From Arenicella chitinivorans (GTDB taxonomy: Bacteria; Pseudomonadota; Gammaproteobacteria; Arenicellales; Arenicellaceae): a DNA stretch of 64,000 nt. The translations under genes were made by a program, and so were the position numbers. Shown here in pieces: positions 12,544 to 32,710 of this stretch; position 1 is the stretch's first letter; each line of letters begins with the position of its first letter. The stretch spans positions 310,001-374,000 of the forward strand of contig NZ_BMXA01000001.1 in NCBI RefSeq assembly GCF_014651515.1. Direction: 5' to 3'. The notes beneath the pieces were generated by a model. That model had not been told where the DNA came from. It did not search any database and saw only the letters and a list, made by a program, of their open reading frames with translations.

Positions 12544-12587
12544 TAGACAACGTTGTCGAATTCATGTAGGATTCGGACAACGTTGTC
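12544..12587 (+). promoter_or_regulatory. Chitinase promoter with two GACAACGTTGTC operators
   Basis: Two perfect copies of the palindrome GACAACGTTGTC lie at 12546-12557 and 12576-12587, 30 bp apart. A likely promoter is TAGACA (12544-12549), 17 bp, TAGGAT (12567-12572). The first operator overlaps the -35 box and the second covers the expected transcription start, a layout suited to LacI-type repression. The start codon of the chitinase is at 12735, leaving a leader of about 155 bases. Confidence 0.8.
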
Positions 12588-12734
12588 ATTATGTCGGCCA
12601 GTTAGCGGTGATCTTTGGTCGAATTCGCCATGCTGCTGCTACTGCGTTCCTACTCTCAAGTAGTGGTTCAGCATTTTTACTCATTTAGCCGACAACCCTA
12701 CATACAGGTTGGCTATTTAATGGAGGATTAGTAG

Positions 12735-15089
12735 ATGTACAAGTTAGTCAAATCGTTAACTATCGCTACCGCCGGGCTTTTCTCGGCCACCGCGTTTGCA
12801 GTTGACTGTAGTTCGCTGAACAGTTGGAGCGCGTCTCAGGTTTACAATGGCGGTGATACGGTAGAAGCGAATGGTAGCGCATACAGTGCCAATTGGTGGA
12901 CGCAAGGCAATGACCCCGTCACCAACAGCGGACCCAGTGGCTCCGGACAGCCTTGGAGTGTACTGGGTCTCTGTGATGGCGGCAGTAATCAAAGCCCGGT
13001 TGCGAATGCCAACGGACCATACTCCGGTACGGTAGGCAGCAATATTGCCTTTAGCAGTGCTGGCTCGAGTGATTCAGATGGTCAGATCGTGTCGTATTCC
13101 TGGAACTTTGGTGATGGCGCTTCTTCCAGCGCTGCAAGTCCGGCGCATGTGTATTCCAGTGCGGGCAACTACACGGTTGCACTCACGGTGACGGATGATG
13201 ACGGAGCGACCAGCAGCGCATCGACGTCGGCGACCATTTCCGGTGGCACCTCCGGCGGATGCAACGGCTTGCCGACATATTCAGCCGGGCAGAGCTATTC
13301 GGCCGGCCAGCATGTGAGTAATGTAAATAAAGAATTTGTTTGCAATGTCGCTGGCTGGTGTTCTTCGTCCGCAGCGTGGGCGTATGAGCCAGGTGTCGGC
13401 GCTCATTGGCAGGATGCCTGGTCTGAAGTCGGTGATTGCAGCGGCAATGCGGCACCCAGCGCCGATGCCAATGGACCTTACTCAGGAACCGCTGGTTCCG
13501 CGATTAGTTTCAGTAGTGCCGGCTCGGTTGACCCTGATGGTCAAATCGTCGGCTACAGCTGGAGTTTTGGCGACGGAGGTAGTGCTACGGGTGCGAATCC
13601 GACGCATACCTACGCGACTGCCGGGAATTATACAGTCACACTAACAGTGACTGACAATGGCGGTGCATCTGCAAGCAACTCAACCACGGCGACGATTTCG
13701 TCAGTTGGCGGTAATCTGGACCCGGTTGCCAATGCCAATGGGCCATACAGTGCCTTAGTTGGTAACAGCATCGCCTTCAGCAGTGCCGGTTCGCAGGATT
13801 CTGATGGCAATATCGTGAGCTACGCTTGGGATTTTGGCGATGGTGCGAGCTCGAGTGCAGCGACTCCGGCACACGCCTACGCGACTGCTGGAAACTACAC
13901 AGTGAGTCTCACAGTGACAGATGATGACGGCGCAACGAATACCAGTAGTACCACAGCCACGATCAATACAAGCAATCCGCCAACCGGAAATAAGAAGGTG
14001 GTTGGCTATTTTACCGAGTGGGGCGTTTACGGCCGTAATTATCACATCAAAAACCTGGTCACCAGCGGATCTGCGGAAAAGTTAACGCACATTGTCTACG
14101 CCTTCGGTAATGTACAGAACGGCGAGTGTAAGATCGGCGATTCGTACGCTGCGTACGACAAGTATTACGATGCCGGAGCGAGTGTGGATGGTACCAGTGA
14201 TACATGGGATGCGGGTGCATTGCGTGGAAACTTCAATCAGATTCGCAAACTGAAAGCCATGTATCCAAACATCAAAGTTGTGTGGTCGTTTGGTGGCTGG
14301 ACTTGGTCTGGCGGTTTCGGTCAGGCGGCAGCCAATGCGCAAGCCTTTGCTGATTCCTGCTACAACCTCGTCAATGATGCGCGCTGGTCGGATGTGTTCG
14401 ATGGCATTGATATCGACTGGGAGTACCCTAACGCCTGTGGCTTGTCGTGTGATTCTAGTGGTCCGGCGGCGTATCCAACGCTAATGGGTGCCTTGCGTGC
14501 TCGTTTCGGCAATCAGTTAGTAACCTCAGCGATTGGCGCGGGCAGTGCTAAGTTGAATGCGGCTGACTATGGCCCAGCTGCGCAATACCTAGACTTCTAT
14601 ATGTTGATGACCTATGACTTTTTCGGCGCATTCGATGCCGATGGGCCTACGGCACCACATTCCCCGCTTACCGCCTACCCTGGTATTCCGATTGCGGACT
14701 TCCATTCGGATAATGGCGTACAACTGTTGAAGAGTTTCGGTGTGCCATCTGAAAAAATCTTACTCGGCATTGGCTTTTATGGACGAGGCTGGACCGGTGT
14801 GTCACAAAGTGCGCCAGGTGGCTCCGCCAGTGGTGCCGCGCAAGGCACGTACGAGGCGGGCATTGAAGACTACAAAGTTTTGAAGAATTCATGTCCTGCG
14901 ACCGGCGTCGTGGCTGGAACTGCGTACGCATATTGCGGCAACAATTGGTGGAGCTTCGATACGCCCGCGACTATTCAAGGGAAAATGAATTACGCAAACC
15001 AACAAGGTCTCGGTGGTGCGTTTTTCTGGGAATTTAGTGGAGACACGGCGAATGGCGAGCTGATCCAAGCTATTTCAGACGGTCTGTAA
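12735..15089 (+). CDS. Secreted GH18 chitinase with CBM5/12, PKD and CBM73-like modules
   Basis: This 784-residue secreted endo/exo-chitinase has the order: signal peptide 1-22 (ends AFA), CBM5/12 chitin-binding module 23-80, PKD domain about 88-168, Cys-containing chitin-binding module about 176-236 with GWCSSSAAWAYEPGVGAHW (CBM73/CBM5-like), PKD about 241-322, PKD about 330-412, GH18 from 420. The catalytic motif DGIDIDWE spans 556-563 with Glu563 as acid. KVVGYFTEWGVYGRNYHIKNL is the typical first strand of ChiA/ChiD-type enzymes. Two GACAACGTTGTC operators lie upstream, so it is probably induced by GlcNAc or chitin oligomers. A terminator follows. Confidence 0.95.
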   Translation: MYKLVKSLTIATAGLFSATAFAVDCSSLNSWSASQVYNGGDTVEANGSAYSANWWTQGNDPVTNSGPSGSGQPWSVLGLCDGGSNQSPVANANGPYSGTVGSNIAFSSAGSSDSDGQIVSYSWNFGDGASSSAASPAHVYSSAGNYTVALTVTDDDGATSSASTSATISGGTSGGCNGLPTYSAGQSYSAGQHVSNVNKEFVCNVAGWCSSSAAWAYEPGVGAHWQDAWSEVGDCSGNAAPSADANGPYSGTAGSAISFSSAGSVDPDGQIVGYSWSFGDGGSATGANPTHTYATAGNYTVTLTVTDNGGASASNSTTATISSVGGNLDPVANANGPYSALVGNSIAFSSAGSQDSDGNIVSYAWDFGDGASSSAATPAHAYATAGNYTVSLTVTDDDGATNTSSTTATINTSNPPTGNKKVVGYFTEWGVYGRNYHIKNLVTSGSAEKLTHIVYAFGNVQNGECKIGDSYAAYDKYYDAGASVDGTSDTWDAGALRGNFNQIRKLKAMYPNIKVVWSFGGWTWSGGFGQAAANAQAFADSCYNLVNDARWSDVFDGIDIDWEYPNACGLSCDSSGPAAYPTLMGALRARFGNQLVTSAIGAGSAKLNAADYGPAAQYLDFYMLMTYDFFGAFDADGPTAPHSPLTAYPGIPIADFHSDNGVQLLKSFGVPSEKILLGIGFYGRGWTGVSQSAPGGSASGAAQGTYEAGIEDYKVLKNSCPATGVVAGTAYAYCGNNWWSFDTPATIQGKMNYANQQGLGGAFFWEFSGDTANGELIQAISDGL

Positions 15090-15193: not shown

Positions 15194-17179
15194 ATGACTT
15201 TCCTACGTTTATGCACCGCACTGTATTGTGGTGCGCTCTTATTTGTTCCTGCATCGGCTTTGGCGGTCGACTGCAGTAGTCTATCTTCCTGGACCAGCAG
15301 TACAGTGTACGTTGGTAATGATCAGGTTAAGCATGCGGGATCTGCCTATCGCGCGAAATGGTGGACACAAAACCAAAACCCAATTAACCATTCGCAACAA
15401 TGGGATGTCTGGGCCGTGTTGGGATCTTGTGGGGATACGCCGACTAACCAAGCACCGAGTGCACAAATCAACGGTCCCTATCAGGCGCTGGTTGGTCAAA
15501 CACTTAATTTCAACAGTGCTGGATCAACCGATGTCGATGGCACGATTACAGGCTATCAGTGGCAGTTTGGCGACGGTGCTTCGAGTTCGTTGCCCAATCC
15601 GCAACACACCTACACGACGGCGGGCACCTACACCGTCACCTTAACTGTTATCGATAATCAAGGCACCAGCAGCGTCGCCTCCACTTCGGCGGCAATCAGT
15701 GACGATTCTGGCGGCGAACCAGGCAGTTGTGATGGCGTTCCGGCGTATGTTGCTGGCGCGAGTTATGCAGCTGGTGACATGGTGTCCAATGCCGGCAAGC
15801 GTTTCGAATGCCTGATTGAGGGCTGGTGTTCTTCGTCCGCAGCTTGGGCATATGAACCAGGCGTCGGTGCGCATTGGGGAGATGCCTGGAATGAGTTTGG
15901 TGATTGCCAAACAAGTGGCAACAATCAACCGCCCGTTGCTGAGATTAACGGCCCTTACTATGGCCAGGTTAACCAGATGATTAACTTCACTGCCGCAGGC
16001 AGTAGCGACCCAGATGGCAGTGTCGCCAATTATAGCTGGAGCTTCGGTGACGGGGCACAGTCTAACCAGTCATCTGCCTCGCATAGTTACACCAATACGG
16101 GAACCTATACGGTCACGCTAACCGTCACCGACAATGACGGGGCTGCAACCACCGTGTCAACGGTGGCGAATATTAACGATGGCAGCGCAACGGGCAGTCC
16201 ATTACCACACCGTGTATTGGTTGGTTATTGGCATAACTTTGTGAATCAAGCAGGCTACCTTCCTATTGGATCGGTCAGTGATGTCTGGGACATCGTAAAC
16301 CTTTCATTCGCTGAAAATAAACTCGGTGGTCAGCCGGGTGAGGTGGCGTTTGCACCGGCTGAAGAGAGCGAAGCAGCATTTATGGCGGGTGTCCAGATGT
16401 TACAGGCGCGTGGGCAAAAAGTGCTTATCTCGCTGGGTGGTGCAAACGCGCATATCACGCTCGATAATGTCACAGAGCGCGATAACTTTGTGCGCACCAT
16501 GGGCGATATAATCGCGCGCTATGATTTGGACGGCATGGACATAGATCTCGAAGGCGGATCGTTAAACATGAATCCCGGCGATACTGTGGCGAACCCGCAA
16601 ACTCCGGCGATTGTGAATTTGATTGAAGCGACACGTCAGTTGAAAGCGCGCTTTGGTCCCGACTTTATCCTCACAATGGCCCCAGAAACCGCATACGTCC
16701 AGGGTGGCTATGCGAATTTCGGTGGCATCTGGGGAGCGTATCTGCCCTTGATTCACGCCTTGCGTAATGATCTGAATCTGTTGCATGTACAGCACTACAA
16801 TTCCGGTTCCATCCTGGCCACTGATGATGTTGCCTACAACGCCGGAACCGCCAATTTCCATGTGGCGTTGTCAGACATGATGATCACGGGTTTTCCAGCT
16901 GGACGAGATGCCAACAATTTCTTCCCTGGCTTGCGTGCCGATCAGGTAGCGATCGGACTGCCAGCCACAGCCGGTGCTGCTTCATCAGGGCTTACCTCAA
17001 GTAGCGTTGTGCATTCTGCTTTAGATTGTTTGATCAAGCGCACTGGTTGTGGGGCTTATGTGCCGGGGCAGGCACACCCGGATTTTCGAGGTCTGATGAC
17101 CTGGTCTATTACCTGGGATGCCTATGGTAACGGTAGTTTTTCGAATCCGCATCGTGCTTATCTGAACGCAAACCCTTAA
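15194..17179 (+). CDS. Second secreted GH18 chitinase (ChiC/ChiD-type catalytic domain)
   Basis: This 661-residue secreted enzyme has signal peptide 1-24, CBM5/12 about 25-79, PKD about 87-168, the same Cys-containing CBM as its neighbour at about 179-238, PKD about 246-328 and a GH18 domain from 338. Catalytic motif DGMDIDLEGGS contains Glu453. The first strand HRVLVGYWHNFVNQAG is of the short, open-cleft bacterial type, so it is probably endo-acting and complements the first enzyme. The binding modules are paralogous to those of the upstream chitinase while the catalytic domains are from different GH18 subgroups. It has no operator of its own and follows a terminator by about 40 bp, so expression may rely on read-through or a weak promoter. 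Confidence 0.94.
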   Translation: MTFLRLCTALYCGALLFVPASALAVDCSSLSSWTSSTVYVGNDQVKHAGSAYRAKWWTQNQNPINHSQQWDVWAVLGSCGDTPTNQAPSAQINGPYQALVGQTLNFNSAGSTDVDGTITGYQWQFGDGASSSLPNPQHTYTTAGTYTVTLTVIDNQGTSSVASTSAAISDDSGGEPGSCDGVPAYVAGASYAAGDMVSNAGKRFECLIEGWCSSSAAWAYEPGVGAHWGDAWNEFGDCQTSGNNQPPVAEINGPYYGQVNQMINFTAAGSSDPDGSVANYSWSFGDGAQSNQSSASHSYTNTGTYTVTLTVTDNDGAATTVSTVANINDGSATGSPLPHRVLVGYWHNFVNQAGYLPIGSVSDVWDIVNLSFAENKLGGQPGEVAFAPAEESEAAFMAGVQMLQARGQKVLISLGGANAHITLDNVTERDNFVRTMGDIIARYDLDGMDIDLEGGSLNMNPGDTVANPQTPAIVNLIEATRQLKARFGPDFILTMAPETAYVQGGYANFGGIWGAYLPLIHALRNDLNLLHVQHYNSGSILATDDVAYNAGTANFHVALSDMMITGFPAGRDANNFFPGLRADQVAIGLPATAGAASSGLTSSSVVHSALDCLIKRTGCGAYVPGQAHPDFRGLMTWSITWDAYGNGSFSNPHRAYLNANP

Positions 17180-17194
17180 GTAATAACACCAAAA

Positions 17195-17230: not shown

Positions 17231-17294
17231 GTTCGGTCGATGTAGAACTAAATCGCACTTAGTACGCGAAAACAACATTCTGTTACATATCAAT

Positions 17295-17364
17295 GACAAC
17301 GTTGCCAAAAAAATCGTATTTTTCACATCGCAAGATTGACAACGTTGTCTTATGTTTGTACTTT
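17295..17364 (+). promoter_or_regulatory. TonB receptor promoter with one perfect and one near-perfect operator
   Basis: GACAACGTTGCC (17295-17306, one mismatch) and GACAACGTTGTC (17338-17349) lie 43 bp apart. TTGACA at 17336-17341 is a perfect -35 box whose last four bases are the first four of the operator; 17 bp later TACTTT (17359-17364) is a modest -10. Binding of the LacI-type protein here would block the -35 region directly. Confidence 0.75.
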
Positions 17365-17464
17365 GTTCCCACTAGGTGAGAACCCAGTGCTCATTTGGCG
17401 AATAATAATGTAAAAAATTCAGATACGAGTTTGTGACAAGTTACCGTTTCGGTAGGAGATGAGA

Positions 17465-20053
17465 ATGTCCAAAAAGTTCAATAAAATGCCACTCAAGGCC
17501 AAGCTAAAGCGAATTAGCGACCCGGCTTTGTATGGTGCGGTTGGTACCCTTGCAGCGGCAATGCTTGCGCCTGTAAACAGTGGCTATGCGCAGGATGCGC
17601 AAGTGAATGCAGAGATCGAAGAAGTCGTTGTCTACGGCACACGTGGCGCATTACGCAAAGCACTGGAAGTAAAGCGTGCAGCAAACTCGGTAGTGGATGC
17701 AATCTCCGCGGAAGACATTGGTAAATTCCCAGACAAAAACCTGGCCGAAGCGTTACAGCGTGTACCTGGCGTGACGATTAACCGCGGTTTCGTTGGCGAA
17801 GGTAACGAAGTGTCGATTCGTGGTGTAAACCCAGAATTGACACACACCATGATGAACGGTCAGTTTGTAGCATCTACGGAATGGTTCTCATTGGGTGCGA
17901 ACAACCGCAGCTTTAACATGGACTTGTTGCCATCTGAGCTGGTTTCGAGCATTGAAGTACATAAGTCGCCAACCGCATCGCTGGATGAAGGCGGAGTGGG
18001 TGGTACTGTTATCGTCAATACCCGGCGTCCACTGGAAGCGACGGATGCGTTAACAGTTTTCGCATCAATCGAAACGAATAGCAACAGCTTGGCAGATAGC
18101 GATGACACCGGCATTGGTGCGACTGGTTATGTCAGTTGGAAAAATGATGACAGTACTTTTGGTGTATCCGGCATGGTGCACAGCAATGAAATTGTTGGTC
18201 GTGCGGACAAAGCAGAAAACTATTGGGAAGAATCCTGGTCAGCAATCGGTTTGGCAGAATTTCGGCAAAATCGTGAGCGCCAAACGGTTGATCTAACCTT
18301 GGAGTACGCGCCAACGGACGAGCAGTCTTACACGCTTGAGTACTTGAAGACCGAAATCGACGCGCAAAACATTAATCAGAACTTCCTGGTAATTAATGCC
18401 AGCGATATTACCCCATCTACGTCGCGCGTTGCCCCATCAGCAGCCTGTTGTGGTCGCGCAGAAGTATTGCCGCTGGCGGGCACAGTCAATGCAGCAGCGA
18501 ATCTGGCTCAGGACGCGAACGCACGGATGCCCGTGATGGAAAGCGATGTATTGCACTTTACCGGTGAGTATGACGGTGAGGGCTGGACTTTGAGCTATGA
18601 GCTGGGCAAAACCACGGCCGAAGGCGGTAACGGTGGCAATGCGAACGCGTTGATTGGATTAGGCGCGTTTGATGCCACATCGGGTGTCACCGTGGATTTC
18701 GATGCCGATCTGCCGCAACGGATTATTGCTAACATTAATGGGACGTCGGTTGCCAACGCGTCGGGCAGTACCGTGCTGAGCATGGCGCTGGCAGAAACGG
18801 TGTTGGAAGACGAGGAAACCTACTACCAGGCGGACTTGAATTTTGATGTCGATTGGGGTGTGTTCAACTCCGTCGACGTTGGTGTCAAATTGCGTGATCA
18901 TGCGCAAGAGCAGAACCAATTCAATTCCACTGTGTCATTGCCAGAAGGTGCAACAGTCGCCAGTCTGGGAATAGGCGATGGTGCGCTGAACGTCGATGGC
19001 GATGTGTGCGGTGGGAACGCGTGTAATTATGTCCGTATTGATAGCGGCGCGCTGCACGGTGCAGCGACTAGCCTTGCCGGTGCCCCGCAGCGTGTAGATA
19101 ACGCGTTTGGTCGCATTGAAGAGGACATCACGGCATTTTACGCACAAGCAAACTTTGCCGGTGACAGCTATCGCGGTAATGTTGGTGCACGTTATGTGCA
19201 GACGGATGTGACTGGTACGTCGGCGTTCAACGTGGTTGAGTCGGATTACTCAGAATTGTTGCCAAGCTTCAATATCGCGTTTGATTTGTCGGACGACCTG
19301 TTGTTACGTGGTTCGATGGCGCGCGTGATGTCGCGTGCAGGGTACAGCAGCCTGAATCCGGCATTTGGAGCTATCGCCAACATTCAACAAACTGCAACGC
19401 AAGGTAACTCCGCGATTGAACCATTCATTGCTGACCAAGCAGATATCGGTTTGGAATGGTATTTCGGTGAAGGTTCGTTGTTGTCTGGATCGATCTTCCA
19501 CAAAGACATCAAATCCTTTATCACGACGACGTCAGAAGTGCGCACGTTGACACTGCCTGGTGAGCCACCTCTGCCATACCGCACAACGATCCCTGTCCAA
19601 GGTAAAGGCGGTGACTTGACTGGCTTCGAAGTTCAGTTCCAAAAAGAGTTCGAGAACGGCTTTGGCTTGATTGCGAACTACACCTACGTCGACGCGGAAG
19701 GTGAGTTGGATGATGGCACTAAGGTCGATTTGCCGGGTACCTCTGAGAGCGCGTACAACCTGAGCGGTTACTACGAGAACGAAAAAGTCTCAGTGCGTTT
19801 GGCGTACACCTATCGCGACGCCTTCCTGGCGGAAGGTACGGCACTGGGGACAGCGCTTGATTCGTTTGAAGATCAGTCGTTCGTTGACTTGTCTGCGACT
19901 TACCACATCACCAATAACCTGGATATCTCTTTTGAAGGCGTGAACCTAACGGAAGAGGTCACCATCCAGAACTTTGGTTCAGGCCTGAATAGTCTGCGTG
20001 TTGCATCAGTGAATGGCGCGCGCTACTTCGTCAAGCTGGCGTATCGTTACTAG
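17465..20053 (+). CDS. TonB-dependent receptor of the chitin/GlcNAc regulon
   Basis: This receptor of about 862 residues probably carries chito-oligosaccharides across the outer membrane. After a long positively charged leader and hydrophobic segment ending SGYAQ, the TonB-box region IEEVVVYGTRGALRKALEVKR and plug motifs FPDKNLAEALQRVPGVTINR, GEGNEVSIRG and EVHKSPTASLDEGGVGGTVIVNTRRP follow; the barrel ends in KLAYRY. An ATG two codons earlier (17459) directly abuts TAGGAG, so the ATG at 17465, 6 bases from it, is the better start. Operators upstream tie it to the LacI regulon. A strong terminator follows, then halogenase-like and SapC-like genes. Specificity is inferred from context. Confidence 0.92.
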   Translation: MSKKFNKMPLKAKLKRISDPALYGAVGTLAAAMLAPVNSGYAQDAQVNAEIEEVVVYGTRGALRKALEVKRAANSVVDAISAEDIGKFPDKNLAEALQRVPGVTINRGFVGEGNEVSIRGVNPELTHTMMNGQFVASTEWFSLGANNRSFNMDLLPSELVSSIEVHKSPTASLDEGGVGGTVIVNTRRPLEATDALTVFASIETNSNSLADSDDTGIGATGYVSWKNDDSTFGVSGMVHSNEIVGRADKAENYWEESWSAIGLAEFRQNRERQTVDLTLEYAPTDEQSYTLEYLKTEIDAQNINQNFLVINASDITPSTSRVAPSAACCGRAEVLPLAGTVNAAANLAQDANARMPVMESDVLHFTGEYDGEGWTLSYELGKTTAEGGNGGNANALIGLGAFDATSGVTVDFDADLPQRIIANINGTSVANASGSTVLSMALAETVLEDEETYYQADLNFDVDWGVFNSVDVGVKLRDHAQEQNQFNSTVSLPEGATVASLGIGDGALNVDGDVCGGNACNYVRIDSGALHGAATSLAGAPQRVDNAFGRIEEDITAFYAQANFAGDSYRGNVGARYVQTDVTGTSAFNVVESDYSELLPSFNIAFDLSDDLLLRGSMARVMSRAGYSSLNPAFGAIANIQQTATQGNSAIEPFIADQADIGLEWYFGEGSLLSGSIFHKDIKSFITTTSEVRTLTLPGEPPLPYRTTIPVQGKGGDLTGFEVQFQKEFENGFGLIANYTYVDAEGELDDGTKVDLPGTSESAYNLSGYYENEKVSVRLAYTYRDAFLAEGTALGTALDSFEDQSFVDLSATYHITNNLDISFEGVNLTEEVTIQNFGSGLNSLRVASVNGARYFVKLAYRY

Positions 20054-20073
20054 GCGGCGATCGGCGATTAGAG

Positions 20074-20100
20074 GGGAGGGCAGTGTCCCTCCCTTTTTTT
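20074..20100 (+). terminator. Strong intrinsic terminator after the chitin receptor
   Basis: GGGAGGG (20074-20080), loop CAGTGT, CCCTCCC (20087-20093), then seven T. It lies 20 bp after the receptor stop and 66 bp before the halogenase-like gene, which therefore needs read-through or its own promoter. Confidence 0.92.
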
Positions 20101-20166
20101 GTAAAGTGTGGCCTGAAGCAGTCTTCATGCTGAGTTTGTTTCAGGTTCACTAAGCATGGATAGAGC

Positions 20167-21756
20167 GTGCAATGGAGTATACTAGTCTGCATGAAATTGG
20201 GTGAGCTTCGAGTTGAGCAGGTGGTCATCGTTGGTGGTGGCACCGCGGGTTGGCTAACAGCCTGCACATTAGCTAAAAACCTTGTGTCAACGCGACCCGG
20301 TGCGATCCGAGTTTGCGTGATTGAATCGCCGGATATCCCGACTATCGGTGTGGGCGAAGGTACTTGGCCAACCATGCGTCGAACGCTGGAAAATATTGGT
20401 TTGGATGAAACCGAGTTCATTCGAGAATGTAACGCAACCTTTAAGCAAGGCAGCCAGTTTATTGATTGGAAACAAAATGCAGACGACGCTCAGCCGCATA
20501 CGTATTACAACCTTTTTAGCTCGATCTACAATCCTGCCGACTTTAATCTCGCGCCGTATTGGGTGCTTGGGCATGCTGGGCGTGATGTCAGTTACGCAAA
20601 TGCGGTGAGTGCTCAGGGTGTGGCCTGTGATCGCGGTCTGGCGCCCAAGAAAATCACCACGCGCGGTTACGATGCGGTTCAAAGTTACGCGTATCATTTG
20701 GATGCGGGCAAGTTCGCCGCACTACTTAAGCGGCATGCGGTCGATAAGCTGGGCGTCCATTTTGTGCCCGCCAACGTCACGCAGGTAAATTGTGACCACG
20801 ATGGGTTCATCACCGACGTCGACACCGAAGAGCAAGGCAAAGTCAGCGGTCAGTTGTTTGTGGACTGCACTGGTTTTCGGAGCTTATTACTCGGCGACAC
20901 CATGCGAATACCGTTTAACGACGTAAACGACGTATTGCTGACCGATACCGCAATGGCTGCTCAGATTCCGTACCTTTCGAAAGATGCAGATATCGCGTGT
21001 GTGACCAAAGCAACGGCGCAGGCAGCTGGTTGGATTTGGGATATCGGGCTGCAAAACCGGCGCGGAGTTGGTCACGTGTTTTCTTCCGCGCACATCAGCG
21101 ACGATCAAGCTGAGCAGCAGCTGCGAGCATACTGTGGTGACCTAAGCGGTGAGCTGAGTGTACGCAAGATTAAAATGCGGGTAGGCTATCGGGAAAAATT
21201 TTGGCACAAAAATTGTGTTGCGATTGGCTTGTCAGCCGCGTTTGTGGAACCGCTCGAAGCATCAGCGATCTTTTTGGTAGAGGCAGCAGGGAACATGTTG
21301 TCTGATTTATTCCCTCGATCACGGGGTGCAATGGCACACACAGAGAAAAAATTTAATAAATCGTTCCGTTTTCGGTGGGATAAGACTATCGACTTTATAA
21401 AACTGCATTATTATCTGTCTTCTCGTCAGGAACCATTCTGGCGAGACAATAAGCAGTCCGAAACGGTCCCCAACAGTTTGTTGGATAAGCTGGATGCCTG
21501 GTCTCGGCATCCAGTCAGCAAATACGACTTCTCGGACACGAATGAACCCTTTCCGCACGAGAGTTATCAATACATCTTGCACGGTATGGGGTTCGAGCAA
21601 TCGTTGCAGTCGAGCGCATCGACATTTGCCCAGGTGGAACAGGCCAAGATGTCTTTTGCCAACGTGGCCAAAGCCACTGAGCATGTGTGTCGAGACTTGC
21701 CGTCGCATCGATCGTTGATTGACAAAGTATGCCAATATGGCTTTCCAAAGATTTAA
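20167..21756 (+). CDS. Flavin-dependent tryptophan-halogenase-like protein, copy 1
   Basis: This 529-residue protein is of the PrnA/tryptophan 7-halogenase fold. The FAD motif VVIVGGGTAGWLTA is at 19-32, and Lys93 in ATFKQGSQF aligns with the lysine that relays hypohalous acid. EPLEASAIFLVEAA at 361-374 matches the active-site Glu region. The diagnostic WxWxIP is changed to WIWDIG (289-294). It starts with GTG at 20167 or ATG at 20191; neither has a strong Shine-Dalgarno. Together with the SapC-like gene and a second copy it forms a tight trio behind the chitin TonB receptor. Relatives commonly sit beside TonB receptors, and their true substrate is unknown; halogenation is not assured. Confidence 0.85.
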   Translation: MQWSILVCMKLGELRVEQVVIVGGGTAGWLTACTLAKNLVSTRPGAIRVCVIESPDIPTIGVGEGTWPTMRRTLENIGLDETEFIRECNATFKQGSQFIDWKQNADDAQPHTYYNLFSSIYNPADFNLAPYWVLGHAGRDVSYANAVSAQGVACDRGLAPKKITTRGYDAVQSYAYHLDAGKFAALLKRHAVDKLGVHFVPANVTQVNCDHDGFITDVDTEEQGKVSGQLFVDCTGFRSLLLGDTMRIPFNDVNDVLLTDTAMAAQIPYLSKDADIACVTKATAQAAGWIWDIGLQNRRGVGHVFSSAHISDDQAEQQLRAYCGDLSGELSVRKIKMRVGYREKFWHKNCVAIGLSAAFVEPLEASAIFLVEAAGNMLSDLFPRSRGAMAHTEKKFNKSFRFRWDKTIDFIKLHYYLSSRQEPFWRDNKQSETVPNSLLDKLDAWSRHPVSKYDFSDTNEPFPHESYQYILHGMGFEQSLQSSASTFAQVEQAKMSFANVAKATEHVCRDLPSHRSLIDKVCQYGFPKI

Positions 21757-21764
21757 AAATAATT

Positions 21765-22487
21765 ATGACATCACTCGTAGCACTAAATTCCGATGCCCAC
21801 CGTAACCTAAAGGTGGAAGTTAAAGACCAAGTGGCACTGGCCGAAGGGCACAACCTGTTGCCGATTTTTATGGCTGAATTTGGACCTTGTTCCTCTGAAT
21901 GCCCGGTTGTATTTGCAAAAAATAACGAAACAGGTCAGATCCGCCCCGTTATCATGACCGGCTTTACACCCGATGAGAATTTGCTGTGTGAGAACGGCAA
22001 ATGGCTGGGCCGCTATCTGCCGGGTAGTTTGAGACCGTCAGCGCTGGTTGCTATGCCTGATAAGAACAATAGCGAGAAACTGGTTATCTGTGTTGATGAG
22101 GACTCGAAGCTGGTGAATACCGATCTGGGCGAGCGGCTTTTTGATGACGAAGGAAATCAAACTGAATTCCTTCAGCATCAGTCAAAATTAGCTGCGGAAG
22201 TGCGCGCGCATGGCATGCAAATGCTGGACTTTATTGACACCTTAACCGAGCTGTCACTGTTGAAGAGCAACCCGATCTCCATTACACCGCCGAGTGGTCA
22301 GCCATTCAATGTCACGGGGCTGTACTTTGTTGATGAAGTTGCCCTGGGCGAATTACCGGCGGAGAAGCTGGCCGAGTTGCGAGACAAAGGGTATCTGCGT
22401 GCTATCTACGCGAGCTTGGTGTCTTTACATCGACTGGACGATCTGATGCAACGACGTGCTAAACGGAGCGCTCAGGAAGCCAAGTAA
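21765..22487 (+). CDS. SapC-like protein of unknown function
   Basis: This protein of about 240 residues begins MTSLVALNSDAHRNLKVEV, typical for the SapC family (named after an annotation in S-layer context; biochemical role unknown). Other visible features are HNLLPIFMAEFGPCSSECPVVFAKN, IMTGFTPDENLLCENGKWLGRYLPGSLRPSALV, a central acidic stretch, and a basic C-terminus with QRRAKRSAQEAK. There is no signal peptide or membrane segment. An in-frame ATG at 21729 lies inside the halogenase-like gene, but the ATG at 21765, 9 bp after its stop, matches the family start. It lies between two halogenase-like genes, an arrangement I recall as recurrent beside TonB receptors in other gammaproteobacteria and alphaproteobacteria. 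Confidence 0.8.
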   Translation: MTSLVALNSDAHRNLKVEVKDQVALAEGHNLLPIFMAEFGPCSSECPVVFAKNNETGQIRPVIMTGFTPDENLLCENGKWLGRYLPGSLRPSALVAMPDKNNSEKLVICVDEDSKLVNTDLGERLFDDEGNQTEFLQHQSKLAAEVRAHGMQMLDFIDTLTELSLLKSNPISITPPSGQPFNVTGLYFVDEVALGELPAEKLAELRDKGYLRAIYASLVSLHRLDDLMQRRAKRSAQEAK

Positions 22488-22513
22488 TTGGCAGATCAGC
22501 ACGTAACGTCGAT

Positions 22514-24070
22514 ATGAGCAGGGTAACGCGTGTCTTAATTGTTGGCGGTGGCACAGCCGGCTGGATTACCGCAGGCTTGCTGGCCAAACGGTTTAATTGC
22601 GCAGATGACCCGACTATCACGGTGTCGTTGGTGGAATCACCGAATGTACCAATTATGGGTGTTGGTGAAGGCACTTGGCCGACTATTCGAACCACACTGC
22701 AAGTGCTCGGTATTGATGAATCCGAGTTTATTCGATGCTGCGACGCCACGTTCAAACAAGGGTCTGAGTTTGTCAACTGGGTGCACACACCCGAGCCGGG
22801 TGAACGTCACAGCTATTATCACCCATTGAACGCGGTGTTTCATGCAGCCTATGACTTCAATCTCGCGCCGTACTGGATACTCGGTGACGGCGGAGATTTG
22901 CCGTATGACATGGCAACCGCCACGCAGGCTCAGATGTGTGCGCGTAATTTGGCGCCTAAAAAGATTACAACGCCAGCCTATGCAGCAATCCAAAATTACT
23001 CATATCATCTCGATGCCAATAAGTTTGCGGACTTTTTGCATGAGCACTGTGTCGCCCATTTGGGGGTACAGTTTCACTCAGCAGATGTGAATGAGGTCTG
23101 TCTGGATGAGCAGGGCGATATCATGGCCGTTGAAACTGACCAAGTTGGACGTTTGGAAGCCGATCTATTTGTGGACTGTTCCGGCGCTAAAGCAATTCTG
23201 TTAGGCGAAGCGCTGGGTGTACCGTACCAAGATATTTCGGACATCATTTTTAACGATACGGCGCTGGCGATACGCGTGCCCTATGAAGATGATCAAGAGC
23301 CGATAGCCACGCACACCATTGCTACTGCATTTGCAGATGGTTGGACTTGGGATATCGGCCTGACCGAGCGCCGTGGTGTTGGCTTTGTTTACAGTTCAAT
23401 GTATACGGATGATGCACAGGCTGAGGAATATTTACGCGCCTACCTTGGTGAGGCAGGGAACCAGTTCGAGGCACGCAAAATCCGGTTTCAGAGCGGTTAC
23501 CGTCGTGAATTTTGGCACAAAAACTGTGTCGCGATTGGTATGTCGGCCGCGTTTATCGAGCCGTTAGAGGCTTCCGCAATTTTTCTGGTGGAGGCCGCCG
23601 CCAACATGTTGGCCGAACAATTTCCCAACACACGGAAGGAAATGCAGTACGCGGCGGATCAGTACAACAGTATTTTAAATTTGCGCTGGGATAAAACCGT
23701 CGACTTCGTTAAGCTTCATTATTGCGTGAGTAAACGGCGTGACAGCCAATACTGGATCGACAATTGCGACCCAAAATCCATTCCAGAATCGCTGCAGCAA
23801 CGCTTAGCATACTGGAAGACACACGTTCCCAGTAAGTACGATTTCGATTACGCGTTTGAGCCATTCGTGTTGGACAGCTATTTATTTGTGTTGTACGGCA
23901 TGCAATACGAGGTTGATTTGCGTGACAGCGAACATCAGTTTGCTCAGAAGCGCTCGGCTCGACAACGGTTTGATGAGGTTCGTCGTTCGGTATCGACGCT
24001 CGAAACCCAATTACCAACGCATCGTCAACTGTTGGAGCAAGTGCACAAGTTTGGATTTGCTAAGATTTAA
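22514..24070 (+). CDS. Flavin-dependent tryptophan-halogenase-like protein, copy 2
   Basis: This 518-residue paralogue of the protein at 20167 shares the same architecture: VLIVGGGTAGWITA near the N-terminus, Lys81 in ATFKQGSEF (close to PrnA Lys79), WTWDIG at 277-282 in place of WxWxIP, and EPLEASAIFLVEAAANMLAEQFP. The C-terminal halves are very similar, including SYLFVLYGM / SYQYILHGM. It starts 26 bp after the SapC-like gene, so the trio is one transcription unit. The retained Lys and Glu suggest an active oxidative site; a flavin reductase partner is not encoded nearby. Whether it halogenates a small molecule or serves receptor function is unknown. Confidence 0.85.
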   Translation: MSRVTRVLIVGGGTAGWITAGLLAKRFNCADDPTITVSLVESPNVPIMGVGEGTWPTIRTTLQVLGIDESEFIRCCDATFKQGSEFVNWVHTPEPGERHSYYHPLNAVFHAAYDFNLAPYWILGDGGDLPYDMATATQAQMCARNLAPKKITTPAYAAIQNYSYHLDANKFADFLHEHCVAHLGVQFHSADVNEVCLDEQGDIMAVETDQVGRLEADLFVDCSGAKAILLGEALGVPYQDISDIIFNDTALAIRVPYEDDQEPIATHTIATAFADGWTWDIGLTERRGVGFVYSSMYTDDAQAEEYLRAYLGEAGNQFEARKIRFQSGYRREFWHKNCVAIGMSAAFIEPLEASAIFLVEAAANMLAEQFPNTRKEMQYAADQYNSILNLRWDKTVDFVKLHYCVSKRRDSQYWIDNCDPKSIPESLQQRLAYWKTHVPSKYDFDYAFEPFVLDSYLFVLYGMQYEVDLRDSEHQFAQKRSARQRFDEVRRSVSTLETQLPTHRQLLEQVHKFGFAKI

Positions 24071-24101
24071 CCAAGCAGTCCCCTATGGGCTGTCGAGATT
24101 T

Positions 24102-24122: not shown

Positions 24123-24169
24123 CGTCTAGGGCCTGTGACCAAGGCGCAGTCAATAAGTTAGGATTAACC

Positions 24170-25213
24170 ATGAAAGTCACCATAAAAGATGTTGCCGAAC
24201 TGGCCGGTGTGTCCTTCAAAACCGTTTCGCGCGTCGTAAATCAGGAAGGCGGTGTTAAAGCCGAGATGCGCGAAAAAGTGCAGGCCGCGATCGAGAAGCT
24301 AAATTATCAGCCAAACTTGTCTGCAAGGCGTCTGCGCGGAAAGTCTGCCACCATTGGCTTCATTTATAACAACCCCAACAGTAATTATGTGATTACGATG
24401 TTGCACGGCATTCTCGCAGCAGCGAGAGCGAATTCGTACGAGTTGGTAGTACATCCTTGTGAGACTGAGTCAGATCCAGTTGCTATTGTGGAAGAAATTA
24501 TCGCCCTAACCAGGCGGAGCATGGTCGCAGGGTTGGTGCTTACGCCACCAATTTCAGAGAACCCCGACATTTTGTCTAAACTAGATGCGGCCGAGATTCC
24601 GTATTCTCGAATTGTATCTAGCTCCAGTCCACCGTCAGATGCCGAGCGGACAATTTATATCGACGACCGCCAGGCGGCATATCAGATTACCCAACATTTG
24701 CTGACGCAAAAACACACGCGGATTTGTTTTTTGAATGGCGACCCAGAACACATGTCCAGTGGCGAACGACTGGAAGGTTATAAGCAGGCACTTCGTGAAC
24801 ACGGACTGCCTGTCGATGACACGCTGGTGCTCGAGGGGCATTATACGTTTGAGTCCGGCATGGAGCGCGCCCAGCAAGTGTTAAGTCAGCCGTCGGCGCC
24901 GACAGCCATCTTCGCCTGTAATGACGAAATTGCCGCAGGTGCACTGTTTGCGGCACGAATGCGGGGCGTCCGAGTCCCTGAGCAGCTGGCGATTGCCGGT
25001 TTTGAGGATAGCCCTTTCTCAAGGCAGACATGGCCTTCGTTGACCACGGCTAAACAGCCCATGGACGAGATCGCACAGCATGCGACAGAGATACTCATTC
25101 GCCTGGTCAGCGGAGAAGCTCATGATGATGCGGGTTACCGTGATCATGCCTATTTGCCGGAGATCATTGTACGAGAATCTTCAACGCAGATTAAAAATAA
25201 GCCTTTAACCTAG
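24170..25213 (+). CDS. nagR: LacI-family repressor of the chitin/GlcNAc regulon (NagR-like)
   Basis: The 347-residue protein has the LacI helix-turn-helix VTIKDVAELAGVSFKTVSRVVNQEGGV at the N-terminus, the hinge helix LSARRLRGKSATIGFI, and a periplasmic-binding-protein-like sensor domain ending with FEDSPFSRQTWPSLTTAKQPMDEI. LacI proteins bind palindromes with a central CG. The GACAACGTTGTC sites upstream of chitinase, receptor, nagA and nagK genes fit that class, so this protein is the obvious candidate regulator. In several gammaproteobacteria a LacI-type NagR controls GlcNAc use. The effector (GlcNAc-6-P or GlcN-6-P) is inferred. No operator precedes its own gene. Confidence 0.88.
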   Translation: MKVTIKDVAELAGVSFKTVSRVVNQEGGVKAEMREKVQAAIEKLNYQPNLSARRLRGKSATIGFIYNNPNSNYVITMLHGILAAARANSYELVVHPCETESDPVAIVEEIIALTRRSMVAGLVLTPPISENPDILSKLDAAEIPYSRIVSSSSPPSDAERTIYIDDRQAAYQITQHLLTQKHTRICFLNGDPEHMSSGERLEGYKQALREHGLPVDDTLVLEGHYTFESGMERAQQVLSQPSAPTAIFACNDEIAAGALFAARMRGVRVPEQLAIAGFEDSPFSRQTWPSLTTAKQPMDEIAQHATEILIRLVSGEAHDDAGYRDHAYLPEIIVRESSTQIKNKPLT

Positions 25214-25343: not shown

Positions 25344-25372
25344 TTGCATAATTGACAACGTTGTCAGATAAT
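25344..25372 (+). promoter_or_regulatory. nagA promoter with operator
   Basis: A perfect GACAACGTTGTC lies at 25354-25365. TTGCAT (25344-25349), 17 bp, GATAAT (25367-25372) is the best promoter fit and places the operator between the boxes. TTGACA at 25352 also overlaps the operator as at the other promoters, but has no good -10. The nagA ATG is 36 bp beyond the -10. Confidence 0.7.
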
Positions 25373-25408: not shown

Positions 25409-26572
25409 ATGACCGAGTTCGCCCTTCAAGCCGATCGGATATTCAACGGCGATCAATTTCTTGAGAACCATGCTGTGGTTGTGGAACAGAACCGCATATC
25501 CGCGGTGACAGCACGCAGTGAACTTCCCTCAGATATGGTGGTTGAAAACTTGGGTTCGGGTGTTTTGGCCCCCGGATTTATCGACTGGCAGGTCAATGGT
25601 GGTGGCGGCGTGTTATTCAATAATGACACGACGGTCAATGGTATTCGGCGCATACTGCGTGGCCATTATCAGGGTGGCACCACGGGGTTGTTGCCCACCT
25701 TGATCAGTGATACGCAATCAGCCCGTGGCCTTGCTGTTATGGCGACCCGTGCAGCGATTGCCGAAGGTGAACAAAGCGTTTTGGGATTGCATCTAGAAGG
25801 CCCATACTTCGCTGCGGCGAAGCGTGGCACACACCATGAGGCGTTCATGGCGTCGCCCAGCGATGCAGAGATTGCTTGGCTGATCGACAATGCGGATTTA
25901 CCTCTACTCGTAACCTTGGCGCCGGAAGTAGTTGGCTGCCAGCAGATTCAGCGTCTTAGCGATGCCGGCGTTATAGTTTGTGCTGGGCATACTAACGCAG
26001 ATGCTGCGACCGTGAATAAGGCCTTACGGGCTGGCTTACGTGGCTTCACGCATCTTTACAATGCGATGCGCCCGGCGACGGGGCGGGAGCCAGGCGTGGT
26101 CGGTGCGGCGCTGGTTGATCGACAAGCTTGGTGCGGCATTATTGCCGATGGACATCATGTGCATGCGGATATGATTCGCTTGGCGTGGCATGCCAAGCCC
26201 ACCGGCAAACTGTGCCTGGTAAGTGACGCCATGGCCACAGTAGGCGGTGTACATAGATCTTTCGAATTGTATGGTCAAACGATTACTGAGCGTGATGGCA
26301 GACTATTGAACAGCGAAGGGAATCTCGCTGGATCAGCGATTACGATGATCGATGCAGTGCGGATCGCGCATCAACTGGCGGGAATTGAGCTTGGGGAAGT
26401 CTTACGGATGGCCTCCTTGTATCCAGCCGAATTTCTACGCCAACCGAAGTTAGGCTTGGTTAAACCTGGCTATCGTGCGGATTTGGTGCACTTTAACTCA
26501 GAGTTTCAGGTGCAGCAGACGTGGGTTGCAGGGCAAGCCAAGCTGCCATCAAACAAGCGTGTTTTATCATGA
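25409..26572 (+). CDS. nagA: N-acetylglucosamine-6-phosphate deacetylase
   Basis: NagA converts GlcNAc-6-phosphate to glucosamine-6-phosphate and acetate in the cytoplasm. The 387-residue protein (E. coli 382) has [11 protein letters not shown], metal-binding Glu130 in LHLEGPYF, His194 in CAGHTNA, His215 in GFTHLYNAM, the DGHHVH motif and catalytic Asp273 in LVSDAMAT, all in register with E. coli NagA (Glu131, His195, His216, Asp273). No Shine-Dalgarno is obvious. It is the first gene behind a perfect operator and overlaps nagB by 4 bp. Confidence 0.97.
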
Positions 26573-27363
26573 GAGTAGTGATTGTTGGATCTGCACACGA
26601 TGCGGCCGCGTACGGGTGTGATTTGTTTCTAGGTCAGCTTCACGATAAGCCCACGTCGGTGTTTGGTTTAGCCACCGGATCGACGCCATTAGCGTTGTAT
26701 CAAGCCTTGATCGACGCACATCGAAATCAAGGTATCAGTTTTGCTCAAGTGACCACGTTTAATCTTGATGAATACGTCGGCTTAGCGGGCGATCATTCGC
26801 AAAGTTATCGCCATTTCATGCAGCGAAACCTGTTTGATTGCATTGACGTTGCGCCCGAAAATACCCATGTTCCAAACGGTATGGCGGAAAACGCGGAACT
26901 TGCGTGTGCCGAATACGAAGCACAAATCATGAATGCAGGCGGTATCGATCTCCAGTTGCTTGGTGTCGGGCGCAATGGCCATATTGGGTTTAACGAGCCT
27001 TCGTCATCGCTGGTGTCGCGAACGCGCGTTAAAACCTTGACTGAGGGAACGATCGCGGACAACGCTCGCTTCTTTGCTGATGGTGAGTACCAACCGAGCC
27101 TGTCGCTAACGATGGGTATTGGCACGATTATGGATGCGCGTCGGGTGCTGTTAATTGCAACCGGAGACTCCAAGGCGGATGCGATGCGGGCGGCGATTGA
27201 AGGGCCGGTCAGTGCCGCTTGTCCAGCATCGATATTGCAGATGCATGCAGATGCGATCGTGGTTATGGATGAAGCAGCGGCTGCAAAATTACGGAATGCA
27301 GAATTTTATCGTTTTGTGGAAACGCAACGGATCAAGCTGGCAGCAAAATCCTCTGCGGCATAA
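26569..27363 (+). CDS. nagB: Glucosamine-6-phosphate deaminase
   Basis: NagB converts glucosamine-6-phosphate to fructose-6-phosphate and ammonia. The start [11 protein letters not shown] at 26569 overlaps the nagA stop as ATGA and gives 264 residues, close to E. coli NagB (266); a longer frame opens earlier inside nagA but is not conserved. Visible motifs are [21 protein letters not shown] with Asp67, and [13 protein letters not shown] with His138 and Glu143. The position of E. coli Asp141 is Asn136 here, a change also seen in Gram-positive-type NagB. The gene is convergent with the symporter gene, 33 bp away. Confidence 0.96.
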
Positions 27364-27395: not shown

Positions 27396-29468
27396 TTATC
27401 GTTCTCGATTAATTTTATTCATGCCTCGGATCACGATCAGCATGGTGATCGTAAATATGCTCAGCAAGATACTGGCAACGCCATAGTCGAGTCGCAGGCC
27501 ATAGCCAATGCCAAACATCCCGGCGTAGATCCCAATCGAGCCTAAAACAAAATACAACATGGATGCGGCAAAACTTCGTGCAGGTTGATGGGCTTGGTTC
27601 AAATTTTTCCACAACCCGATCGGCTTGACCTTATCAACAAAGCGCTGCAGCGTTGCGTCTGGTACCGCTGGCGTAATGAATGTGGTGACGAGAGACACCA
27701 GGGCTGCGCAGACAGAGATCCAGCAGATGACGTGAATCGGATGGCTCGCAATTGCGGTAGGAAAGATCGATATCTGACCGGAAGGCAGCAGAGTATTGTA
27801 TTCGAGTACATAATTACCAAGCGCCAGCAATAGCCCCGTCAACATGCCGGCCAACTCGGACCACGCATTGGCGCGCCACCAAAACCAACGCAACAAGTGC
27901 GGCAGGCCAAGGCCGGCCATCATGCCCAGATATAATTGCCACATAGCGCCAACATTCTCGATAAACGATGCAAATGTCACGGCGGCGACCGTGATGCCCA
28001 GTGTGGCAAGACGACTCACCAGCGTAAGGCGCTGATTAGTGGCTTTCGGGTTAACGAAACGTAGGTAGAAATCGTTCGCGATGTACGATGCGCCCCAATT
28101 AATGTGCGTCGATACTGTCGACATGAACGCACCCATCAAGGCGACCAGTGCCAAACCGAGTAAGCCGGTGGGTAAGACGTCTTTGATCATAGCAGGATAA
28201 CTGCGTTCACGGTCCTCGCGGAATTCGACCTGAGTGGTGCCGTCAGCCTGGGTAATATGTTTTTCGTACAACAGACCAAACTCGTCAATCTGGCACGCGT
28301 ATCGACTGTCTAGACAGGTGCGCTGTGCGATACTGCAAACTTGAGAGTCGTTCAAACAGGCGTTGAATTGTGCGGCGACGTCGTTCACGGCGACTCGCGG
28401 ATAAATAACCAATGCGGCGATGCCAGCGATGACCCAAGGCCAGGACCGAAAGACAAAGTGCGCCAGGCCGTACCATAGGGCCCCTTTTTCCGCTTCGCTG
28501 TTATCCGCTGCACTGTAGAGACGTTGTGCAAAAAAGCCAGCACCATCCACGTTTCCGTTAGTCCACCACATAAACGTCAGCGTTAGAATAAAGGCCGAAA
28601 AAGGAATGCCGAGGGAACCAACAGCCTCGTCGGAGAATGAAGGGATAAACGAGCTGAGTTGTTGGTGGTCCAGAAAGGCCTTGCCATCCAGATCTGTTGC
28701 ATTGCCGCCGACCGGATAGGTTGTTTCCAGGCTGGCCCACAATTGATCTAAGCCACCGACATGAGACACAGCGAAATAGCTGAGAGTGATGGCCATAGTC
28801 ATAGCCAGTACGAACCAGATCATGTCAGTGACCAGAATCGCTTTGAGTCCGCCAACGGCGGAATAAGTGAGTGTAACCACGACGAGAGTAAAAATTGTCA
28901 GACTGGTGTTCAGGTCATTAAAGATCAGCACCTCTGGATATATGCTCTCGATAACGGTGTAGAGCGTGGAGCCGAGCAAATATTGCCAGTCCATAAACGG
29001 TTCCGCAATTTTGGACATGCCCGCAAACACCCAGCCCAGGACGACACAATTAACGATCACAGAAAACACGAAGGCTTTGCTGGTGCGCAATACAGTCGCG
29101 GGTTTGCCGCCATAGCGCAATTCCGCAATTTCAGCGTCAGTGACGACTCCGGTGGAGCGCCAAACCCGCGCAAAAAACACGGTAATGGCCACGATGCCTA
29201 TGGCGCCGCCCCACCAGAACCAGTTCCCGGCGACGCCGTAGTCGGCAATCCAGCCGGTAATCACCAGCGGTGTGTCGGAGGCAAAGGTTGTGGCGGCGAT
29301 TGATGTCCCGAGAAACCACCATTTAGCCGAGCGATTGGCAGTGAAAAATTCTTCAACGCCGCCTTTCCCGCCGCTGTCTTTTAGTACTAGGCTGATGACT
29401 AACGTCAGGCCCAATATCAGGCCGATTATGAGCCAGTCGAGATGAGAAAGAACGGTAGTGTGCGTCAT
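27396..29468 (-). CDS. Sodium:solute symporter (SSS family), probable GlcNAc or chitobiose importer
   Basis: This 690-residue protein belongs to the SSS (SGLT-like) family of Na+-coupled importers. It has about 14 hydrophobic segments, VEEFFTANRSAKWWFLGTSIAATTFASDTP near the N-terminus, TYSAVGGLKAILVTDMIWF, and LVALMGAFMSTVSTHINWGASYIANDFY, all typical family elements. An insert at about 360-425 has four cysteines at 371, 378, 385 and 392, each separated by exactly six residues; this is unusual and may form disulfides in an external loop. It is the last gene of the nagK-GH20-symporter operon (11-bp gaps). Substrate is inferred from neighbours. Confidence 0.9.
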   Translation of the reverse strand: MTHTTVLSHLDWLIIGLILGLTLVISLVLKDSGGKGGVEEFFTANRSAKWWFLGTSIAATTFASDTPLVITGWIADYGVAGNWFWWGGAIGIVAITVFFARVWRSTGVVTDAEIAELRYGGKPATVLRTSKAFVFSVIVNCVVLGWVFAGMSKIAEPFMDWQYLLGSTLYTVIESIYPEVLIFNDLNTSLTIFTLVVVTLTYSAVGGLKAILVTDMIWFVLAMTMAITLSYFAVSHVGGLDQLWASLETTYPVGGNATDLDGKAFLDHQQLSSFIPSFSDEAVGSLGIPFSAFILTLTFMWWTNGNVDGAGFFAQRLYSAADNSEAEKGALWYGLAHFVFRSWPWVIAGIAALVIYPRVAVNDVAAQFNACLNDSQVCSIAQRTCLDSRYACQIDEFGLLYEKHITQADGTTQVEFREDRERSYPAMIKDVLPTGLLGLALVALMGAFMSTVSTHINWGASYIANDFYLRFVNPKATNQRLTLVSRLATLGITVAAVTFASFIENVGAMWQLYLGMMAGLGLPHLLRWFWWRANAWSELAGMLTGLLLALGNYVLEYNTLLPSGQISIFPTAIASHPIHVICWISVCAALVSLVTTFITPAVPDATLQRFVDKVKPIGLWKNLNQAHQPARSFAASMLYFVLGSIGIYAGMFGIGYGLRLDYGVASILLSIFTITMLIVIRGMNKINRER

Positions 29469-32625: not shown

Positions 32626-32710
32626 GATGATATCTACTAAATTTGGTGTGAACCGAGACTCAGTGAGTCTTGCTAAGTTCGAATTCAAGTCCATTACTAT
32701 TTATATCCCG

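Follow-up and report, generated by a model that had tools for sequence, protein, structure and literature searches.

In the genome of Arenicella chitinivorans, the stretch of 64,000 nucleotides analysed here (contig NZ_BMXA01000001.1, positions 310,001 to 374,000; hereafter the window) holds a locus for the use of chitin and N-acetylglucosamine (GlcNAc), in which a gene for a TonB-dependent receptor is followed by three genes encoding two halogenase-like flavoproteins, Hal1 and Hal2, and, between them, a SapC-like protein. Genes of this kind belong to a widespread set that consists of a TonB receptor, a flavoprotein with the motif WxWD[I/V][G/A] and SapC, often joined elsewhere by a JmjC-like Cupin_8 protein and a flavoprotein with the motif WxWxIP. 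We lean, tentatively and without holding it probable, towards the view that the trio is the chitin-locus version of this receptor-accessory set and that its role is the maturation or escort of a surface protein, be it the receptor or another.

The gene trio

Hal1, SapC and Hal2 are three intact open reading frames (ORFs) in the ORF list of the window, with 8 base pairs (bp) between the first two (21756 to 21765) and 26 bp between the last two (22487 to 22514). Hal1 and Hal2 match the Trp_halogenase profile (PF04820) over its full length, with E-values of 5.8e-126 and 1.1e-122 (421.4 and 410.7 bits, cut-off 21), and the protein encoded between them covers positions 1-220 of the 220 in the SapC profile PF07277 (E 9.2e-62; 208.9 bits, cut-off 28.9). 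The initial annotation of this DNA, made from the sequence alone, had described PrnA-type paralogues flanking a SapC-like gene in a tight unit, both with an EPLE segment and with WIWDIG or WTWDIG in place of WxWxIP, and these features are all borne out. Each paralogue has GxGxxG, the EPLE segment, a catalytic-type Lys and the Glu that we take to be the catalytic one; the WxWxIP motif of flavin-dependent halogenases is absent, Hal1 reading WIWDIG and Hal2 WTWDIG, and the Trp1 segment of tryptophan halogenases (ATIPSL or ATFSTV type) is replaced by GTWPTM and GTWPTI. Two start codons can be considered for Hal1, GTG at 20167 and ATG at 20191; the latter, which has GGAG upstream, appears likelier and would give a protein of 521 amino acids (the reference sequence used in comparisons starts one codon later, at 20194). 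Of the two positions first assigned to the catalytic-type Lys, 81 is correct for Hal2, whereas 93 for Hal1 is true only of the GTG start and becomes K85 when counted from the ATG.

QhpG, LodB and GoxB are flavoproteins that modify protein residues. Against their NCBIfam models, Hal1 and Hal2 reach 48.5 and 39.3 bits for QhpG, far under the cut-off of 240, and 28.6 and 23.4 bits for LodB (cut-off 400), and Hal1 alone matches GoxB, with 24.7 bits (cut-off 400). The AlphaFold2 model of SapC has a confident fold (pLDDT 96.2), for which the Protein Data Bank (PDB) holds no match either by sequence (best E 0.5) or by the fold of the predicted model (best E 0.32).

Association with TonB-dependent receptors

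All six full-length PF04820 genes of the host genome are located in four loci, each with a receptor of the TIGR01782 family, although the genome has only six receptors above the cut-off of that family; SapC is present in two of these four loci, and a third copy lies apart. Across seven genomes, 27 of the 30 listed halogenase-like genes are within 6 kilobases (kb) of a TIGR01782 receptor, as against 1.3 expected, which rules out a chance neighbourhood. An eighth genome (G301) was left out of this test because its receptors are scattered across numerous contigs; so were two receptors encoded on the second contig of G361, and among the receptors of G390 one scores below the family cut-off. Among 299 genomes of Pseudomonadota, a full PF04820 gene (at E 1e-60) is present in 36 and SapC in 104, the latter being found in 35 of the 36 and in 69 of the other 263 (Fisher p 2.9e-17, ignoring the relatedness of genomes, which is uncorrected in all our counts). 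Random association of these neighbours in other genomes had been named at the outset as what would refute a functional link, and the linkage proves to be non-random.

The same picture was obtained from 85 genome regions around 108 listed non-host hits, chosen blind to the neighbours and with at most five candidates scored per genome. In the regions around listed hits, a receptor lies within 6 kb of 99 of the 120 full-length genes and SapC within that distance of 42 of the 120, and of 15 regions drawn at random from these genomes, one of which itself holds halogenase-like genes, a receptor lies no more than 6 kb from the centre in 1 and no more than 9 kb in 2. The models used to find receptor, SapC, cupin and LacI genes were seeded from the window and the host genome and supplemented with strong locus hits; the receptor model misses the other class of TonB receptor found at one locus (L294), and distances to receptor and SapC were counted on stop-to-stop ORFs, so that gaps come out slightly short. 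The 80 loci named individually are the best 80 of 560, picked by similarity to WxWDIG proteins, and are uninformative on motif frequency. Elsewhere in the host genome, the locus L016:1362-16085 comprises, in order, GH16-like, receptor, WIWDIG protein, SapC, Cupin_8, WQWRIP protein, Cupin_8 and GH16-like genes, the GH16-like calls being made by reading of the sequence.

A clade marked by the WxWDIG motif

In a midpoint-rooted tree of 243 halogenase-like proteins (one of 244 sequences was dropped for its length), 105 form a clade with a support of 0.999 that carries WxWD[I/V], the following residue being G in 91 members, A in 9, C in 2, P in 2 and S in 1. The core of the clade, 88 proteins with a support of 0.997, has SapC within 6 kb in 83 cases and a receptor in 85, and 88 of the 105 clade members are encoded downstream of a receptor, on the same strand and at a distance of at most 6 kb, which for 73 of them is at most 1 kb. 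The other large group, of 123 mostly WxWRIP/EPLESTS proteins, has a receptor beside 105 of its members and SapC beside 48. In the neighbour-blind regions, SapC is found within 6 kb of 15 of the 17 clade members and of 27 of the 102 other proteins; a receptor is equally near to 15 of the 17.

The changes typical of the clade concentrate at known motifs, namely the Trp1 segment, the residue after the catalytic-type Lys, WxWDIG in place of WxWRIP, and EASA. The Trp1 segment reads GEGT[W/F/V]P in 97 of the 105 clade members and GEATIP in 87 of 127 WxWxIP proteins, 99% of clade members have Gln instead of Leu after the Lys, and EASA is present in 58 of the 88 core members, with ESTS in most of the other group. 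The catalytic-type Lys and Glu are each retained in 241 of the 243 proteins, so that these PF04820 members are unlikely to be dead enzymes.

It had initially been proposed that WxWxIG tracks chitin receptors. With a chitin locus defined by the presence of at least two of GH20, NagK and NagA, G is the last residue of the motif in 11 of 15 clade members from chitin loci and in 80 of 90 from elsewhere (Fisher p 0.11, with the odds lower in chitin loci). A chitin-specific WxWxIG is rejected on these counts: the motif marks a phylogenetic clade that is represented in chitin and non-chitin loci, and it does not follow chitin.

The duplicate pair of Hal1 and Hal2 is kept in four chitin loci, those of the window and of L019, L020 and L021, with a support of 0.976 for the Hal1 group, 1.0 for the Hal2 group and 0.869 for the two jointly; in L019, from a marine metagenome-assembled genome, the order of the searched genes from receptor to GH20 matches that of the window. 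Many other loci combine one WxWDIG protein with SapC, a Cupin_8/JmjC-like protein and one WxWxIP protein, the Cupin_8 identity having been confirmed with Pfam on two proteins. A separate group with WxW[Q/E]ID and EPLESTG (L022, L028, L031, L046 and L056) has SapC and a receptor in all five cases and lies in chitin loci in four of the five.

Co-divergence with the receptor, and SapC on its own

Across 75 triplets of receptor, Hal and SapC, distances correlate at 0.71 for SapC and receptor, 0.66 for Hal and receptor and 0.59 for Hal and SapC, each value being reached in none of 2000 permutations, and the corresponding partial correlations are 0.54, 0.42 and 0.23. In the 21 loci that have a LacI gene, the correlation to the receptor is 0.88 for SapC, 0.81 for Hal and 0.52 for LacI (the bootstrap fraction with a difference from LacI of zero or less is 0.0045 for SapC and 0.001 for Hal); SapC and Hal are thus tied more closely to the receptor than a LacI gene is by its presence in the locus. 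A separate set of 41 cupin loci shows correlations to the receptor of 0.87 for the cupin, 0.83 for SapC and 0.67 for Hal.

SapC is also encoded in genomes that have no halogenase-like genes, and in 20 of these (L286-L305) a TIGR01782-like receptor was found within 9 kb of it in 0 of 20 loci. On the basis of named hits, at least 7 of the 20 loci have it beside genes for secretion or surface proteins: a giant RTX protein (L286), ShlB/FhaC two-partner secretion (TPS) proteins (L288, L289), OEP outer-membrane efflux proteins (L291, L292), the TonB receptor of different class mentioned above (L294) and a TPS exoprotein (L297). PPIC rotamases occur in L293, L303 has a weak match to M50/HlyD, and HlyD is matched by 5 of 80 proteins neighbouring solitary SapC. 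None of these families is among the 25 leading ones in a Pfam tally of 14 random regions of other genomes; the tallies covered 80 of 104 SapC-neighbour and 80 of 92 random-region proteins, taken from different genomes, and a closer look at the neighbours was confined to 16 hand-picked proteins.

The surrounding chitin locus and its predicted control

Copies of the palindrome TGACAACGTTGTCA with zero to two mismatches precede the first chitinase-like ORF, the receptor, nagA and nagK (Table 1). With up to three mismatches allowed, the window contains 11 such sites; 100 shuffled versions average 4.08, and one of them reached 11. With at most one mismatch, the whole genome contains six, of which five belong to this locus and the sixth to another contig. 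The off-locus copy (L316:1983-1996) lies among codons 1 to 45, by the listed start, of a minus-strand ORF (630-2114) that by its sequence reads as a secreted chitinase-like protein with an apparent carbohydrate-binding part. A copy with up to two mismatches is present at the receptor start in 9 of 9 receptor-holding chitin-type loci and in 0 of 6 non-chitin loci, in a comparison of 16 hand-picked loci. The locus thus has a LacI regulator and a palindrome common to the nag, chitinase and receptor genes, and is predicted to be a NagR (LacI) chitin regulon. The proposals of the initial annotation that the receptor is under control of the palindrome and that the trio is linked to carbohydrate uptake agree with the two one-mismatch copies upstream of the receptor and, for the latter, with the receptor linkage and the distribution of the palindrome among loci.

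Neither the whole-genome nor the window scan placed a copy of the palindrome directly before the trio, which is separated from the receptor by a hairpin followed by a T run. A scan of 17180-25450 for the terminator consensus yields 13 sites, as against 9.7 in shuffled sequence, and therefore proves nothing by itself. The hairpin is present as initially described; the distance of 66 bp given from it to the trio fits the GTG at 20167 and not the likelier ATG. With the trio placed past the receptor and the hairpin, partial read-through would be the simplest route to shared control, and expression of the trio would follow that of the receptor from the NagR-controlled promoters.

Table 1. Genes and putative control elements of the chitin/GlcNAc locus (window positions)
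Feature	Positions	Strand	Remarks
Two NagR-like palindromes	12545..12588 (at 12545, 12575)	+	2 and 1 mismatches; before first chitinase-like ORF
Chitinase-like ORF	12735..15089	+	ORF list; presumably GH18, by reading of sequence
Second chitinase-like ORF	15194..17179	+	ORF list; presumably GH18, by reading of sequence
Two NagR-like palindromes	17294..17350 (at 17294, 17337)	+	1 mismatch each; before receptor
TonB-dependent receptor	17459..20053	+	TIGR01782, 600.9 bits, cut-off 310
Terminator-like hairpin and T run	20073..20101	+	between receptor and Hal1
Hal1	20191..21756	+	PF04820 halogenase-like flavoprotein; WIWDIG, EPLEASA; alternative GTG start 20167
SapC-like	21765..22487	+	PF07277; alternative start ATG 21729
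Hal2	22514..24070	+	PF04820 halogenase-like flavoprotein; WTWDIG, EPLEASA
LacI-family regulator, NagR candidate	24170..25213	+	profile match; no NCBIfam equivalog cut-off reached
Exact NagR-like palindrome	25353..25366	+	before nagA
NagA	25409..26572	+	TIGR00221 above cut-off
NagB	26569..27363	+	TIGR00502 above cut-off
Sodium:solute symporter family protein, candidate GlcNAc permease	27396..29468	-	profile match
GH20 beta-hexosaminidase	29480..31699	-	profile match
NagK, SO3507 type	31711..32694	-	NF046058 above cut-off
Exact NagR-like palindrome	32725..32738	+	before nagK

The receptor of the locus has no PDB match at E 1e-10. On one side of the locus, the window carries a second TonB receptor (PF00593), then a GH3 enzyme and an AraC-type regulator (1964-8496), a region that holds none of the six full-length PF04820 or three SapC genes of the genome; on the other, genes for a chaperone (PapD_N) and an outer-membrane usher (34318-37589) adjoin the chitin genes.

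Possible functions of the trio

The set accompanies receptors at loci for differing glycans and diverges together with the receptor, and its SapC recurs at other loci of surface proteins, which agrees better with a service to a protein than to a glycan. For the transcription, substrate and reaction of the trio we infer the following course. The genes would be transcribed onward from the NagR-controlled promoters of the receptor, at a level lowered by the hairpin; SapC would recognise an outer-membrane or secreted protein before its export; the flavoproteins, elsewhere together with the cupin, would act by oxidation or halogenation on a residue in that protein or in a bound peptide; and the receptor, correctly matured, would thereby reach the surface. 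In a bolder and rather unlikely form of this proposal, SapC and the WxWDIG flavoproteins, with the JmjC-like cupin where present, constitute a post-translational maturation set that puts an oxidised or halogenated residue on glycan TonB receptors, with SapC as a general recognition part that also serves RTX and two-partner-secreted giant proteins. If true, this would amount to a novel type of modification of outer-membrane proteins.

Several observations weigh against a role in receptor maturation or escort. In the seven genomes, a listed halogenase-like gene is within 6 kb of 22 of 77 receptors, so that most receptors do without; the 17 clade members outside the core have SapC within 6 kb in no case and a receptor in only 7, and halogenase-like proteins outside the clade are also receptor-linked (83 of 102 in the neighbour-blind regions). 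The third SapC of the host genome has no receptor in the 3.7 kb examined and is flanked, by sequence reading, by glutathione-transferase-like (with one small ORF between) and dehydrogenase-like ORFs. Co-divergence can also result from inheritance as a block, gene distance being uncontrolled in the correlations, and in the comparison with LacI the regulators may be swapped more readily, or the locus may be regulated by another gene than the nearest LacI one. Clade-linked receptors are not set apart by Trp or Tyr in any column of the receptor alignment; a Phe column (residue 687 of the window receptor) is enriched in them without being exclusive, at 0.88 of 84, as against 0.45 of 58 receptors linked to other halogenase-like genes and 0.40 of only 5 unlinked ones. 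Finally, characterised relatives use free indole derivatives as substrates (PMC7336383), and the distant ones BrvH and Xcc4156 are among those that accept indole derivatives (PMC5945002 and PMC7336383).

The activity of these distant relatives accords with a different role, in which an aromatic compound that is taken up along with the glycan or freed from it becomes the substrate of Hal1 and Hal2 for halogenation or hydroxylation, with SapC as a helper, in scavenging, detoxification or signalling. We consider this a real, if somewhat doubtful, possibility. In its favour, the catalytic-type Lys and Glu are retained, and the closest solved relatives (PDB 2pyx, 9lu2 and 9ltb) were deposited as tryptophan halogenases. 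However, the same gene set accompanies chitin genes at some loci and GH16, GH1 or none of the searched hydrolases at others, so that the glycan does not point to any single aromatic substrate; no flavin reductase was found among the 10 window proteins scanned with profiles; and the Trp1 segment of the clade is predominantly GT[W/F/V]P, not the ATIP of most WxWxIP proteins. The position of the trio behind the receptor, in a locus with operator-like sites, would also suit sensors of redox state or of a ligand, which would adjust the expression of the receptor or TonB energisation and make no dedicated product. Such sensors are distinctly unlikely, given that the catalytic-type residues are almost always retained, that a separate LacI regulator is present and that a profile scan of Hal1, SapC and Hal2 gave no match to a DNA-binding domain.

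That Hal1 and Hal2 belong to a secondary-metabolite pathway as ordinary halogenases of tryptophan or indole, located here by accident, is suggested by the family name, under which the nearest solved relatives were deposited, and is nevertheless highly improbable: between 12735 and 32694 the trio is surrounded by chitin/GlcNAc genes, the LacI regulator and a symporter, the linkage to receptors is general, and the Trp1 segment of tryptophan halogenases is missing. Since most of the sampled members are receptor-linked and the WxWDIG clade has defined partners, the name "tryptophan halogenase" used in Pfam and in PDB entries may well mislead. A NagR-type chitin uptake locus provides a concrete and testable setting for the function of these proteins.

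Comparison with known systems

The locus resembles the NagR (LacI) GlcNAc/chitin regulon of gammaproteobacteria, as described in the accessible parts of PMC2996990 and PMC5343134, in its LacI regulator, NagA, NagB, NagK of the SO3507 type, symporter, receptor and palindromes; neither halogenase nor SapC occurs in the main texts of these two papers. PMC11337851 and PMC3377617 each contain both "tryptophan halogenase" and "TonB-dependent receptor", and their accessible text describes no linkage of the genes. A literature search lacking most subscription journals returned no paper that joins SapC with halogenase and no mention of WxWxIG together with halogenase, and, judging by titles and the beginnings of abstracts, the association of halogenases with receptors is not the subject of any of the papers listed. 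The SapC of the trio matches its family PF07277 over the full length and is here partnered with a TonB receptor and flavoproteins.

The flavin-dependent halogenases of PF04820 (PrnA, RebH, BrvH, Xcc4156) share with Hal1 and Hal2 the whole-length profile match, GxGxxG, the catalytic-type Lys and Glu and the two Trp of WxWxI. Hal1 and Hal2 differ from them in having WxWDIG for WxWxIP, GTWP for ATIP in Trp1 and EPLEASA for the ESTG or ESTS type, and their clade has the Gln noted above after the Lys; the ESTG type is that of PrnA. According to the portions available, PMC8269204 distinguishes motifs Trp1 to Trp4 and groups A and B of tryptophan halogenases, with a Trp1 such as ATIPSL or ATFSTV; PMC5945002, on BrvH, suggests that WxWxIP prevents monooxygenase action; and PMC7336383 describes the native substrates of Xcc4156 as unknown and mentions 2pyx alongside halogenase. 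The nearest solved relatives of Hal1 and Hal2, 2pyx (deposited as Tryptophan halogenase), 9lu2 and 9ltb, match at E of about 1e-126 to 1e-144; in the alignments 2pyx shares WIWDIG/EPLEASA, and 9lu2 and 9ltb have WxWDIA.

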